Below, piece after piece: positions 12,249 to 23,418 of a stretch of 27,167 nt of DNA (its first letter is position 1; every line of letters starts with the position of its first letter). The position numbers and the translations under genes are program-made. Source of the stretch: a virus; the IMG/VR virus record IMGVR_UViG_3300003323_000766, positions 1 through 27,167 of that record, one strand, 5' to 3'. The notes under the pieces are model-generated. The model was not told the DNA's origin, did no database searches, and was given only the letters and a program-made list of their open reading frames with translations.

Positions 12249-13655
12249 TTAATAAATTCTCGCTATTGACGGATACAAATTATCCGTTTTATCAATCACA
12301 TCATCGTTGCTCGATGCCAATAAAATATCAATCGCATCAAACGTACAATCCGCCTGGTCATCATGCGCATGAGACATGTCGGCGCTAAACCCAACCATTT
12401 CATTTGTATAATCAATAAAATAATCCATCATTGGATTCAAAAATACGTACCCGCTTTTCACATACCCTTGCGAATCAAAGGCTCTCGTATATTTATCCTT
12501 CTTTCTAACTATAGGCGTAAACGGCTTTTTAATCGTTCTGCGCAATATCTGAATCAATGCCGTGCCTGATACGGCGTCTTCAATATAAACCCCATTCAAA
12601 TCAACGACATTCTTCGCAATAAAAGCAGATGCCATCACTTCAAGCTCAGGAAACTCCCATTTGCCTCTAACTTGGTCAATCAAATAAATTCCTTTTTGTG
12701 ATTTAATCCAGCACTGCATGACACTATAATCATTCGCCTCTTTTGTCTTCTGCGCAGTGTCCATCACTATAATTTTTTTCGTATAAAGTGGAGCTTTTGT
12801 AAAAACCCCAAAATCTTCCCGCTTAAAAATCTTTCCGCTTCGCCTAATATTCCAATTTCCGCTTAACAATGCAGCGCTTTCTGCCTCTCCGGCCAATTTC
12901 AAATTGGCAATATAATTCGGGTCTTTCTTCAACAGCGCCGGATTATCATCGAGCGTTGCATAAATAAACGTGTAACTTTTAACATCTTTTGCCGGTATTC
13001 CATATTTCGATTCGATATATTCAGGACTATCCCCAAATACAAAATTGTCTTTGTATTGCGACCAATATCGAATATATCCGCGTTTAGAATGGTCTGGCGT
13101 GCCCGAAGGCAGCAAATACCATTCCACAAACTCTCTGACCCAACTATCCGGGTCTGGGTTGCACGTTCCTGCCACCGTCCTAGGAGCCCCGCATGTGCTC
13201 CTATTTCTTGTGAATAGATATGTGAATTGCGTCTTCGTAAAATGCGTTAATTCATCAAAATCTATTTCACAATACTCACCGCCCTGGTGATTGGTCTTGT
13301 CATGCTCCGTTGACAAGCCCTCAAACTTAATCGTTGCCCCAGATTCAAACGTCCAAAGCAACTCCGACAAATTCGGAACGCCACCGAAATGCGGGTAAAT
13401 ATCAAAACTCTTGTCCCATAATCCGCCAGAAATTTTTACCTGCTTCAGCTCTCTTCTAAAGATTACTTTCTGAAAGCCCGGCGTTTTGTAATACCGCAAT
13501 CCACGCAATAATGTCCCGTATGTTTTGCCGCCCCCAGCTTGCCCTCCGTACAAAATAAAATCCGCGGGCGATTGCAGAAATAATGTTTGCCCTCCCGGCT
13601 GTGGCGCAAATAAAACCTTCGCATTCTTAATCAGCTCAGATTGCTCGCGCGTCAT
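12249..13655 (-). CDS. Terminase large subunit (packaging ATPase and nuclease)
   Basis: This motor pumps DNA into the procapsid and cuts the concatemer. The 468-residue product shows a Walker A motif GQAGGGKT (residues 38-45), a Walker B strand EIDFDE (130-135) and a C-terminal RNase H-like nuclease. The nuclease has the first acidic strand VMDTAQ (near 297), a second acidic patch 'YIEDAVSG' and a last one in HDDQADCTFDA (431-441). The ATG at 13655 overlaps the co-chaperonin stop as TGATG, suggesting translational coupling; a TTG one codon earlier is unlikely. All catalytic acids expected for the family appear present. Confidence 0.93.
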   Translation of the reverse strand: MTREQSELIKNAKVLFAPQPGGQTLFLQSPADFILYGGQAGGGKTYGTLLRGLRYYKTPGFQKVIFRRELKQVKISGGLWDKSFDIYPHFGGVPNLSELLWTFESGATIKFEGLSTEHDKTNHQGGEYCEIDFDELTHFTKTQFTYLFTRNRSTCGAPRTVAGTCNPDPDSWVREFVEWYLLPSGTPDHSKRGYIRYWSQYKDNFVFGDSPEYIESKYGIPAKDVKSYTFIYATLDDNPALLKKDPNYIANLKLAGEAESAALLSGNWNIRRSGKIFKREDFGVFTKAPLYTKKIIVMDTAQKTKEANDYSVMQCWIKSQKGIYLIDQVRGKWEFPELEVMASAFIAKNVVDLNGVYIEDAVSGTALIQILRRTIKKPFTPIVRKKDKYTRAFDSQGYVKSGYVFLNPMMDYFIDYTNEMVGFSADMSHAHDDQADCTFDAIDILLASSNDDVIDKTDNLYPSIARIY

Positions 13656-13996
13656 CAATTAAACGTTTGTATAACGCCTCGTTTATGCGGCTCTGGCTTC
13701 TTTCTATCTGTATGAAAATTAATCTCGGGCGTTGGCATATCTTTATCCAGCACCAACATCACATCGTCTAACTTCAGCGTTCTATATTCTTGCCCGTCGA
13801 TAAACGTCGAGAAGCCTGCAAATTTCGCAAATGAAACCCTGTCGCCAGGCTGAAGCTCGTCAATCAATTTTCCAGCGCTAACCACCGTGCCGGCGGTCGA
13901 TTTTTCTTTCGACGCATCTAGAATCTGAATCACAGCGGACGGCATTGGTGGCGGGTCTAGCAATATCAATAATTTATCTTTAACTGCTTTGTGCAT
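13655..13996 (-). CDS. GroES-like (Cpn10) co-chaperonin
   Basis: GroES caps the GroEL folding chamber. Residues 5-10 (VKDKLLI) match the GroES first strand (LHDRVIV). 'KSTAGTVVSAGK' near 33-43 matches 'KSTRGEVLAVGN'. 'LQPGDRVSFAKFAGFSTFIDGQ' (split here after GDRV) matches 'VKVGDIVIF..GYG....DNE', and 'YRTLKLDDVMLVL' matches the C-terminal 'LIMSESDILAIV'. The mobile loop that binds GroEL would be at about 14-32, with the hydrophobic VIQIL in place of GroES IVL. The GroES roof hairpin seems to be missing. The gene lies between and overlaps both terminase genes. P22 coat folding is known to involve GroEL/GroES, so a role in coat folding is a reasonable inference. Confidence 0.75.
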   Translation of the reverse strand: MHKAVKDKLLILLDPPPMPSAVIQILDASKEKSTAGTVVSAGKLIDELQPGDRVSFAKFAGFSTFIDGQEYRTLKLDDVMLVLDKDMPTPEINFHTDRKKPEPHKRGVIQTFN

Positions 13997-14399
13997 TTTT
14001 TATCTCTCCAATTTCGGGCAATACCAATACCACGCCGCCCAGTTTTTCATTGTCACTTGTTACATCAATCTTTTGCTTAGCGTAATAACCATACTTTTTT
14101 GCAATCATGTCGCTAGCAACCAATCGGTCGCTCGTCTTCTCTTCAGCGTTTGATGCTATACCCCACACCAATGCCGTCCATTTTTCGTCCGATATATCGC
14201 ATGCTTGTTCAATCTTCTCCCTGCGGCGCGCAATCTCTTTTTGAACGCGCTCATCACTGAGATAACGATGCGCTGCTGTTCGAGCAGAGCCTCCTTTTAA
14301 CCCAAGAGCTTCCGCTGCTTTATTTCCAACCCCGCCATTCTTAAAGTATTCGTCGACAAATTTCTTAACCCTTAAATTACTCTGTTCTTTAGCTCGCAT
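13980..14399 (-). CDS. Terminase small subunit
   Basis: The small terminase recognises the packaging site and guides the large subunit. The product has 139 residues. The N-terminal helix-turn-helix part reads 'FVDEYFKNGGVGNKAAEALG', followed by 'KGGSARTAAHRYLSDERVQ' and 'EIARRREKIEQ'. This is the usual Terminase_2-type order: an initial helix, N/K-AA, a TA-x-x pair and a Leu-x-x-x-x-V-x-x-x-I helix. It overlaps both the preceding winged-helix gene and the co-chaperonin gene. The C-terminal part (EIGEIKNA) could contact the large subunit. Confidence 0.85.
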   Translation of the reverse strand: MRAKEQSNLRVKKFVDEYFKNGGVGNKAAEALGLKGGSARTAAHRYLSDERVQKEIARRREKIEQACDISDEKWTALVWGIASNAEEKTSDRLVASDMIAKKYGYYAKQKIDVTSDNEKLGGVVLVLPEIGEIKNAQSS

Positions 14400-14619
14400 T
14401 CGATAGCTCCACCTTCAAATCCGTGAACGAATAAAGATGAACAAAGCGTTCTTTGAAGTAACTGCCCGGCAAGGGTGTGCGAGGAACGCTAATGGCCTTG
14501 GCTAAGATGCCTTTTGATTGTATTTTCTTTTCTTGAATTTTGCGTCTGACGGTTTGCTCGGCGACGTTAAAAAGATTCGATGCGTCGAGAACAGTGATTA
14601 GATGCGGTGCATTTTGCAT
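14389..14619 (-). CDS. Small winged-helix/HTH-like protein heading the late operon
   Basis: The first gene of the late operon gives 76 residues from the ATG at 14619. A GTG at 14640 is in frame but lies within the promoter motif, so it was rejected. 'LITVLDASNLFNVAEQTVRRKIQ' (split after F) looks like an excisionase/MerR-type helix-turn-helix. The predicted transcription start nearly coincides with the ATG and there is no ribosome site, so the mRNA may be leaderless. A clear relative (LITINDASKIFKV..) is encoded at 17593-17790. It may regulate the operon itself or bind packaging DNA with the small terminase. Confidence 0.65.
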   Translation of the reverse strand: MQNAPHLITVLDASNLFNVAEQTVRRKIQEKKIQSKGILAKAISVPRTPLPGSYFKERFVHLYSFTDLKVELSNAS

Positions 14620-14628
14620 GTAATGCAC
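14607..14628 (-). promoter_or_regulatory. Inverted repeat over the late-operon start
   Basis: GTGCATT and AATGCAC form a perfect 7-bp inverted repeat with 8 bases between them, beginning at the last base of the -10 and spanning the first ATG. It could be an operator for a regulator or an mRNA hairpin hiding the start codon. Confidence 0.45.
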
Positions 14629-14656
14629 ATATACACGCACAAGAAAAGGATGTCAA
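14628..14656 (-). promoter_or_regulatory. Late-operon promoter
   Basis: On the minus strand TTGACA (14656-14651) is followed by 17 bases and TATATG (14633-14628), the latter inside GTGCGTGTATATGT. The same motif precedes the coat gene. It reads into the terminase genes. The DnaA-box array lies just upstream, its nearest box ending seven bases from the -35. Confidence 0.65.
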
Positions 14657-14662
14657 CAATAG

Positions 14663-14706
14663 TTATCCACAGGATATCCACAGGTTATTAACAGGTTATC
14701 CACAGA
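14663..14706 (+). repeat. Four DnaA boxes in an 11-bp tandem array
   Basis: Boxes begin at 14663 (TTATCCACA), 14674 (ATATCCACA), 14685 (TTATTAACA) and 14696 (TTATCCACA), each followed by GG except the last (GA). The first and last match the strong DnaA box perfectly; the others differ by one and two bases. All point the same way and are spaced exactly 11 bp, about one helical turn, so DnaA could bind side by side as a filament. Beside it is an A+T-rich tract. Candidate roles are a replication origin or DnaA control of the flanking promoters. Confidence 0.8.
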
Positions 14707-14755
14707 AAATATCAAAAAATTTTTGAAAATAAACGAAAATATCTTCAAAATACTG
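14705..14755 (+). other. A+T-rich tract, possible DNA unwinding element
   Basis: This 51-base tract has nine G or C bases (about 18%) and three copies of GAAAATA at 14705, 14725 and 14735, two extended to GAAAATATC. It lies directly next to the DnaA-box array and ends at the -35 of the rightward promoter. The arrangement of boxes plus A+T-rich repeats is what DnaA-dependent origins show. Confidence 0.5.
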
Positions 14756-14784
14756 TTGACAGACGAATTAACTTCGTCTATACT
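14756..14784 (+). promoter_or_regulatory. Strong rightward sigma70 promoter with built-in operator
   Basis: TTGACA (14756-14761) and TATACT (14779-14784) are separated by 17 bases. The spacer holds the perfect inverted repeat AGACGAA-TTAAC-TTCGTCT (14761-14779), which touches both promoter boxes, so a bound repressor would block polymerase. It serves the two rightward genes 14840-15301, the second of which encodes an XRE-type protein that could be the repressor. Confidence 0.75.
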
Positions 14785-14839
14785 GTCTACATCAGATAAA
14801 CACTGATAGCGCAACAACACAAACACCGGAGATTACAAA

Positions 14840-15127
14840 ATGAACGATTTAAACAAAGAAGTTGTCGGGTTGTTTAAACAAAAATGTCAAGCACGTTTAG
14901 ATTCTGACATGAAGCATAATCAAGTAAATTCAAATACTGCGGGCGCGTTTGGCGAATACATGAACGACGCTCTTTTGTCTTTATACAGAGATGAAATCGT
15001 TGAAGAAAACGCTCTCAGCGACATCGAGGCGCAATCTGAAGAGTTTCGCGAAACATACTATGCTATGAACGAAATTAGAGCGGATTTTGAGAGCGAAGCA
15101 AAAGAAATTTATTGCGAGAATTTATAA
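14840..15127 (+). CDS. Small acidic helical protein, unknown
   Basis: The 95-residue product follows a CGGAG site and a strong promoter. It is helical and acidic, especially in its C-terminal half (Glu/Asp-rich, with EEFRETYYAMNEIRADFE). It contains no recognised domain. Small acidic early proteins can be DNA mimics or host-takeover proteins, but nothing here shows that. It is followed without a gap by the small HTH gene. Confidence 0.65.
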   Translation: MNDLNKEVVGLFKQKCQARLDSDMKHNQVNSNTAGAFGEYMNDALLSLYRDEIVEENALSDIEAQSEEFRETYYAMNEIRADFESEAKEIYCENL

Positions 15128-15301
15128 ATGAGCAGTCAAGGTTTCAAAAAACGCCGTCTCGCGCTGAAACTAACTCAGCGCGAATTGGCTGATAAATTAT
15201 GCGTGAGCAAAAGGGCGATTCAATATTACGAAGCGGGTAAGTTAAATCCGTCGAAAAGTGTTTTGAAATTACTCTCAATAGAAGAATCAAAAAGGATGTA
15301 A
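15128..15301 (+). CDS. Tiny XRE-type helix-turn-helix regulator
   Basis: The ATG directly follows the previous stop (TAAATG). The 57-residue product is almost only a Cro/XRE helix-turn-helix: 'FKKRRLALKLTQRELADKL' followed by 'VSKRAIQYYEAGKLNPS'. The pattern of Leu-T-Q-x-x-L-A and the Y-E-x-G-x-x-x-P close are typical of the family. It is shorter than most family members (usually 65 or more), so it may act as a small dimeric repressor. A likely target is the inverted repeat in its own promoter at 14761-14779. Confidence 0.8.
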   Translation: MSSQGFKKRRLALKLTQRELADKLCVSKRAIQYYEAGKLNPSKSVLKLLSIEESKRM

Positions 15302-15326: not shown

Positions 15327-15581
15327 TTAATGAGAATGATTTGTGCTTTTTTGATAAATTTCAATTGCTCTCAAAACTTTCTTTTTGACGCTTCTTTTGG
15401 ATTCGTTTCGACGAATTTTTATGGTTGGGGCTATAGCTCCGGATGCAATAAATTTTTCGTATTCGGACGGTTCTTCTCCTTCTTGGCTTGAATAATCCCA
15501 AAAATAATATTTATCGCCGCCTTTATGAGAGAATTTTGCGGCGTCGTGAGGAGGGTCTATCTTTTCGTGTTTCCATTTCAT
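15327..15581 (-). CDS. Small unknown protein, last gene of the early leftward operon
   Basis: This 84-residue product begins MKWKHEKIDPPHDAAKFSHK, has an aromatic/acidic middle (YYFWDYSSQEGEEP) and a basic helical C-terminus (RRNESKRSVKKKVLRAI). Its start overlaps the upstream stop as ATGA. The gene ends 25 bases from the convergent XRE gene, and no clear terminator hairpin lies between them. The function is unknown. Confidence 0.6.
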   Translation of the reverse strand: MKWKHEKIDPPHDAAKFSHKGGDKYYFWDYSSQEGEEPSEYEKFIASGAIAPTIKIRRNESKRSVKKKVLRAIEIYQKSTNHSH

Positions 15582-21991: not shown

Positions 21992-22140
21992 TTCTTCTCC
22001 TCAATACTCAATTCTTTAACAGCCTCTTTGGCGCACTCCAAGCAAATCCCCGTCGCCCTAAAATAAAGAAGCAAATTATCTCTATAACAAAAATTACAAC
22101 TAAAATATTCGGATGGCTGCTGAATACATATAATGCTCAT
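21988..22140 (-). CDS. Small zinc-ribbon protein, 50 residues
   Basis: The product carries FSCNFCYRD and GICLECAKE, two CxxC pairs 15 residues apart, a classic small zinc ribbon or knuckle, with a short charged helix after it. Its ATG overlaps the replication-protein stop as ATGA. Such mini-proteins may bind host transcription or translation proteins, but this is not shown. Confidence 0.65.
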   Translation of the reverse strand: MSIICIQQPSEYFSCNFCYRDNLLLYFRATGICLECAKEAVKELSIEEKK

Positions 22141-23384
22141 TTCTTGTCCTCACTTAAAAACAACTCAACAAATTTTTCCTTAGCCTTCTCATTACCTAAA
22201 AAGTCTTCTAACTTTTCCGGAAGCTGATTTCGCAATTCCGGATTATCAAAAATATACTTCGTCTTACAGGGTTTCATTTCTGCAATTCTCCAATTCTTAG
22301 AAATCCAATACACCACATCTTCCCATGCCTTCTCTGCGGACTCTTTTTTGCTATTTATTTCTTTTTGGCGAATACCCGCAAAATCTCTCAAAATTTTAAC
22401 TTTCGGGAATTTCCCGTCCTTTGCCTCGGCTTTTTGATGAAAATCGAAAATAGCCCCTTCAATGGCCGCCAAATCATATGTTTTTAGTGATTCATGGTAT
22501 AAATTCAACTGTTCTAAACATAATTCAACGCCACATTGCAATTCTGCTTTCTTCATTATTTCCAAAAATGCGATTGATTTTGGCTCTGAATTAATCTCAA
22601 GAAACTCGGTGTATTTATCTTTTTTGGTAAAATATTTTTTAGCAATGGCTATAAATTTCTCAACGGTATCAGCATTTTTGAAAATTAAAGAAACGGCGGT
22701 ATGAAAATGCTCAGTATAAAATGGGCTGAGAGAACACCCATCAATCGCAAGTTTTAAGTCATCCACGGAATAACCAAGGCGAAGCATTTTTGCAATCGAT
22801 GCGCCTCTTGTTTCATCTAAAACAGAGTAAGCCGAGGAATCGTTTCCTGCAAAAACCTCAGTCCAGTGCATAAACACATCGGATATTTGCGTATTTATGT
22901 TTTCGTCTATCTCCTTTCTTTCTGATATTGTAGAAAGTTCTTTATTTAAATTATTTTCTTTAGATAAAGAACTAGATATAGATAGGTCTTGTTTTTGTAC
23001 AGACAAAGTACGTACTTTTTCGCCCTCTTCTCTAGCTTTCCTAAAAGCATATTGGTCTCTATGTTTCAATATGTTAGGGCAATCTATAGTCAGCATTTCA
23101 ACGCCTCTATTTTCATAGAATTTCAGAAAAAATTTTTCTTTTTCTTGCAAAAATTTTAAAATTTCTCGGAATTTTTTCCGCGAAACCAAACAAAACTTAG
23201 CCCATTCGCTTATAGAAAATGTTGCCGAACTGTGGCTCCAGGAGTTTTTACCCTCGCCTATTCCTGCTGATATTTTCTCAAGAATAATGAAATAAGTGGC
23301 GTAACCTTCTGCGCCATAAATCGACTTTAATTCGGATATGGTTTCTTTTTCGCTAGCATTTGATTTGTGCATAAAATACTTCAC
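22137..23384 (-). CDS. Putative replication initiator, Lin1244/DUF4373-type N-terminus
   Basis: GTG at 23384 was chosen because 'VKYFMHKSNASE' matches the usual DUF4373 start (MKxFxHDSNA), although an ATG at 23393 is also open. The 415-residue product has 'IYGAEGYATYFIILEKI' (about 25-42), the family's helix pair, followed by a winged-helix part with 'LVSRKKFREILKFL'. The C-terminal half has helical segments, with 'AEKAWEDVVYWISKNW' and 'YIFDNPELRNQL' resembling regions in phage replication proteins that precede loader genes. It is the first gene of the leftward early operon. It would bind the origin and recruit the host helicase. There is no helicase motif in it. Confidence 0.65.
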   Translation of the reverse strand: MKYFMHKSNASEKETISELKSIYGAEGYATYFIILEKISAGIGEGKNSWSHSSATFSISEWAKFCLVSRKKFREILKFLQEKEKFFLKFYENRGVEMLTIDCPNILKHRDQYAFRKAREEGEKVRTLSVQKQDLSISSSLSKENNLNKELSTISERKEIDENINTQISDVFMHWTEVFAGNDSSAYSVLDETRGASIAKMLRLGYSVDDLKLAIDGCSLSPFYTEHFHTAVSLIFKNADTVEKFIAIAKKYFTKKDKYTEFLEINSEPKSIAFLEIMKKAELQCGVELCLEQLNLYHESLKTYDLAAIEGAIFDFHQKAEAKDGKFPKVKILRDFAGIRQKEINSKKESAEKAWEDVVYWISKNWRIAEMKPCKTKYIFDNPELRNQLPEKLEDFLGNEKAKEKFVELFLSEDKK

Positions 23385-23418
23385 TGCGAGCATCCCAGCG
23401 GTTTATTTGATTTTTTAA

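Follow-up and report, generated by a model that had tools for sequence, protein, structure and literature searches.

Tandem DnaA boxes beside the predicted late promoter of a phage: a candidate platform for host DnaA

DnaA is known to activate or repress transcription, including at nrdAB and in lambda, and the outcome depends on its amount and on its nucleotide (PMC8203912). At E. coli nrdAB and at other DnaA-controlled promoters, DnaA boxes lie near a sigma-70 promoter (PMC8203912), as they do at the locus described here, which differs in having a candidate late/packaging promoter of a phage and four in-phase tandem boxes. In lambda (transcriptional activation of ori-lambda), host DnaA also acts on phage transcription (PMC8203912); the transcript that it stimulates there is an early, replication transcript, whereas the promoter considered here is that of a head-packaging operon. 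The third comparable system is the basal unwinding system (BUS) of bacterial oriC, which also has tandem boxes about 11 bp apart next to A+T-rich DNA. According to the published rule, a box is followed by a spacer of at most 16 nt and then, on the opposite strand, by at least three DnaA-trios whose middle base is A (PMC8287927).

The DNA analysed, hereafter the window, is a virus record of 27,167 bp, and all window-wide ranks and shuffles refer to these 27 kb. It carries leftward-reading P22-like portal, terminase and coat genes, and near 22–24 kb it has Cro/CI-type HTH genes and an O-like replication initiator gene (22137–23393, minus strand). The leftward operon begins with a gene for an 83-aa HTH protein (14389–14640, minus strand), followed by those of the terminase small subunit (13980–14399, minus strand) and large subunit (12249–13658, minus strand). 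A rightward two-gene unit (14840–15301, plus strand) encodes a 95-aa protein of no known function and a 57-aa HTH protein; the early genes upstream of the leftward operon have convergent ends at 15327/15301.

The array (14663–14704, plus strand) consists of four 9-mers which follow each other in steps of exactly 11 bp, all on the plus strand. The boxes at 14663 and 14696 are identical to the consensus TTATCCACA, the box at 14674 (ATATCCACA) has one mismatch, and that at 14685 (TTATTAACA) has two and is probably a weak DnaA site. The positions, orientation, spacing and two perfect matches given in the original prediction are thus all confirmed. No four-box register in the window does better than this one, with 3 mismatches in total; in 60 dinucleotide shuffles, the best registers had 10–16. 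Single boxes with at most one mismatch are not enriched (11 in the window versus 6.9 expected), so that the significance of the array rests on its register. The locus therefore has the sequence mark of a DnaA-box cluster, with more matches to TTATCCACA in a shared orientation and register than chance would give.

On its left side, the array ends 6 bp upstream of a perfect TTGACA, the −35 element (14651–14656) of a predicted leftward promoter (14628–14656, minus strand) with a 17-bp spacer and a weak −10 element, TATATG (14628–14633). Read leftward from the array, the sequence is CTATTG-TTGACA-17-TATATG. This promoter immediately precedes the whole HTH-TerS-TerL-portal-coat operon. The likely start codon of the 83-aa HTH gene is the ATG at 14619, 8 nt past the −10.

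The closest relative is IMG/VR 3300048911_000214 (L002), whose terminase large subunit, portal and coat proteins are 68%, 72% and 81% identical to those of the window. It was the only close relative retrieved when the small terminase, the 95-aa protein, the terminase and the coat protein were used as queries against viral and genome collections; among 79 more distant terminase loci, just one other had tandem boxes inside the fetched flanks. In the corresponding intergenic region, L002 has TTATCCACAGGTTATCCACAGG in the same orientation as the window array. It comprises two tandem boxes, both exact matches to the DnaA consensus, and one inverted box 34 bp away; the 11-bp spacing, which the original prediction proposed to compare in relatives, is thus kept. 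The gap between the array and the leftward −35, again a perfect TTGACA, is 3 bp in L002 (GTG-TTGACA-17-TATTGT). In both phages the −10 is weak (4/6) and the likely ATG follows it by 7–8 nt; since the two are so close, the leftward mRNA may be leaderless. The boxes therefore occupy a near-fixed position relative to a sigma-70 promoter, as expected of a DnaA-regulated promoter, in the two sequences on which the conservation of the array rests. The HTH protein next to the array is merely 37% identical between the two phages, which makes the kept layout meaningful, within a single comparison.

The right side of the array behaves differently. From the array to the rightward promoter (TTGACA-17-TATACT, 11/12 matches, 14756–14784, plus strand) there are 51 bp in the window, as against 222 bp in L002. 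The original prediction had proposed, as one option, that DnaA tunes both divergent promoters; the anatomy supports this proposal for the leftward promoter, whose abutment is kept (6 and 3 bp), and not for the rightward one. The spacer of the rightward promoter is filled by an operator-like dyad, GACGAATTAACTTCGTC, which differs in L002, as if operator specificity had diverged. Just downstream of this promoter, an ATCAG-N7-CTGAT inverted repeat (14791–14807) is near-identical in L002. Between its array and its rightward promoter (1400–1720), L002 has two copies of a AATCAAAGAGAA element; the window carries a similar sequence, TTTCTTTGATTG, next to its repressor/initiator genes at about 23455.

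Since the −35 abutment is kept in L002 and neither the rightward distance nor the A+T-rich tract on that side is, the reading that we favour, with a probability of about 0.5, is that the array is a cooperative platform for host DnaA which regulates the leftward late promoter of the HTH-TerS-TerL-portal-coat operon. We infer from the sequence that the boxes bind DnaA and that the promoter is active. A row of DnaA whose edge lies some 6 bp upstream of the −35 would be positioned to touch RNA polymerase, as at promoters such as E. coli nrdAB, and late transcription would then depend on free DnaA or DnaA-ATP. Activation is slightly favoured over repression because the array lies upstream of the −35 and not over it. 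As each replicated phage genome would bring another array, DnaA occupancy per copy would fall during replication, and this fall could time the late switch. Such timing by copy number is speculative, and the numbers allow it. A partial literature search found no paper that describes DnaA boxes at late promoters of phages, nor any on tandem DnaA-box arrays in phages.

The next reading in order of probability is that the array is a replication origin of the phage (or of a prophage or plasmid state), where DnaA would assemble on the array and unwind the adjoining A+T-rich tract. The original prediction had put forward a phage or prophage origin; we consider this reading unlikely. The elements on which it was built are present: the boxes are tandem and intergenic, and a recount bears out the tract of 51 nt (14705–14755) with nine G/C and three GAAAATA repeats. 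The conservation of the boxes would fit an origin equally well, and in the rightward operon beside the L002 array the HTH gene is followed by a gene for a protein judged by eye to be SSB-like. The tract is real but ordinary for the window: 0.6% of 51-nt windows reach its A+T richness. No outstanding region of low duplex stability is conserved beside the boxes, as the tract ranks about 17th for low stability in the window and the 51 nt after the array go from 18% GC in the window to 37% in L002. Moreover, the right end of the tract (AATAT.TTCAAAATACTG) coincides with the conserved flank that lies upstream of the rightward promoter; it is therefore more plausibly part of that promoter than an unwinding element, and it could possibly act as an UP element.

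DnaA-trios were sought on the strand that carries them in E. coli and B. subtilis. No trio run follows any of the four window boxes, which, with the lack of conservation of the tract, sets the array apart from the BUS of bacterial origins; L002 does have such a run, as do 35% of random window positions. The cumulative GC-skew minimum of the window lies at 23396, 8.7 kb from the array, and the least stable 100 bp start at 23404, both beside the O-like initiator gene, which makes that neighbourhood a rival candidate for an origin. A distant skew minimum is what the original prediction had named as evidence against an origin; as skew follows the direction of the genes here, in a record that may be only part of a genome, its position is suggestive at most. 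A search for iterons in the O-like gene and its vicinity gave no convincing repeat family. The origin reading is thus weakened by the lack of conservation of the rightward distance and of the tract in L002 and, more tentatively, by the location of the skew minimum and of the weakest duplex. In addition, similar arrays in other phages (L220 and L045, described below) have a portal gene on one side and a coat gene on the other, where an origin would be unusual.

The array could also titrate host DnaA, and so hold back host initiation or shift the expression of DnaA-controlled host genes, its proximity to a promoter being incidental. This appears improbable, and it ranks after the origin. What speaks for it is the wide occurrence of such arrays in unrelated phages and varied gene contexts, with no linkage to promoters. 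A survey of viral contigs with the 26-mer TTATCCACAGGNTATCCACAGGTTAT matched at least 119 contigs, which correspond to 65 distinct arrays; the TTATCCACAGG unit is found in many unrelated phages, and the named ones with such arrays include T7-like, Arthrobacter, Lactococcus and Klebsiella/Salmonella (112–114 kb) phages. The genes near these arrays include terminase, primosomal/initiator and gokushovirus replication genes. The 65 arrays were fetched regardless of promoters, and only one has a TTGACA within about 12 bp. The number of boxes could matter, too, since E. coli has about 200 DnaA per origin (PMC5835720), to be compared with 100 phage copies of three to four boxes. Titration leaves unexplained the conserved 3–6 bp abutment to the −35 in the window and L002.

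Three general rules for the surveyed arrays were considered and rejected. As to linkage to sigma-70 promoters, three promoters were found at the 56 arrays with sufficient flanks (two sides each), for a control rate of 1.7% per side. The downstream flanks have a GC content of 0.43 versus 0.44 overall, which does not support a linkage to A+T-rich DNA. Several arrays lie near record ends or terminase genes, and the excess of terminase adjacency over expectation was judged too small. Four gokushovirus-like contigs (L006, at 2458; L025, at 1597; L060, minus strand; L062, at 647) carry a tandem TTATCCACAGG array 94–223 bp upstream of a replication initiator gene (phrog_942) and pointing toward it, although DnaA should not be required by such ssDNA phages. 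Overall, tandem arrays of DnaA boxes in 11-bp steps are common among phages and probably serve more than one purpose.

That the repeats are operators of another protein, such as a phage HTH regulator, and resemble DnaA boxes by accident is very improbable: several HTH genes do adjoin the array or belong to the immunity region, but the exact DnaA consensus is found in two of the four repeats of the window and in both tandem repeats of L002, and the TTATCCACAGG unit is shared among many unrelated phages.

To return to the control of the late promoter by DnaA, viral contigs were scanned for tandem boxes within 10–12 bp of a TTGACA. The scans matched 11 contigs in which the boxes point away from the TTGACA and five in which they point toward it, and these were grouped by eye into about eight families, including that of L002. 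Three of these families lead into head/packaging genes (that of the window and L002, the L220 family and L045), and about five of the eight have no head genes downstream. In the L220 family and in L045, 3–6 bp separate the tandem boxes from a TTGACA, and head genes follow closely. The gene order in the former (L220, L222, L223 and L224) is portal-like gene, gap, array-TTGACA, 305-aa protein, major head protein, head closure; in L045, it is portal-like gene, array-TTGACA, 305-aa protein and a capsid-like start, recognized by eye with no family match. In both, the portal assignment and a putative scaffold role of the 305-aa proteins come from inspection by eye of sequence and position. The recurrence of the arrangement before head genes is suggestive and not significant alone.

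These cases raise the tentative, and rather doubtful, idea that more than one phage lineage has placed tandem boxes for host DnaA against the −35 of its head/packaging promoter, giving an early-to-late switch that is host-encoded, coupled to replication and free of a dedicated phage late activator, in which late expression would reflect how much free host DnaA there is per copy of the phage genome. If this is true, the host replication initiator would be a timer of phage packaging genes, and late expression would be tied to genome copy number with no need of a viral activator. It would also provide one reason why tandem DnaA-box arrays are so common in phages.
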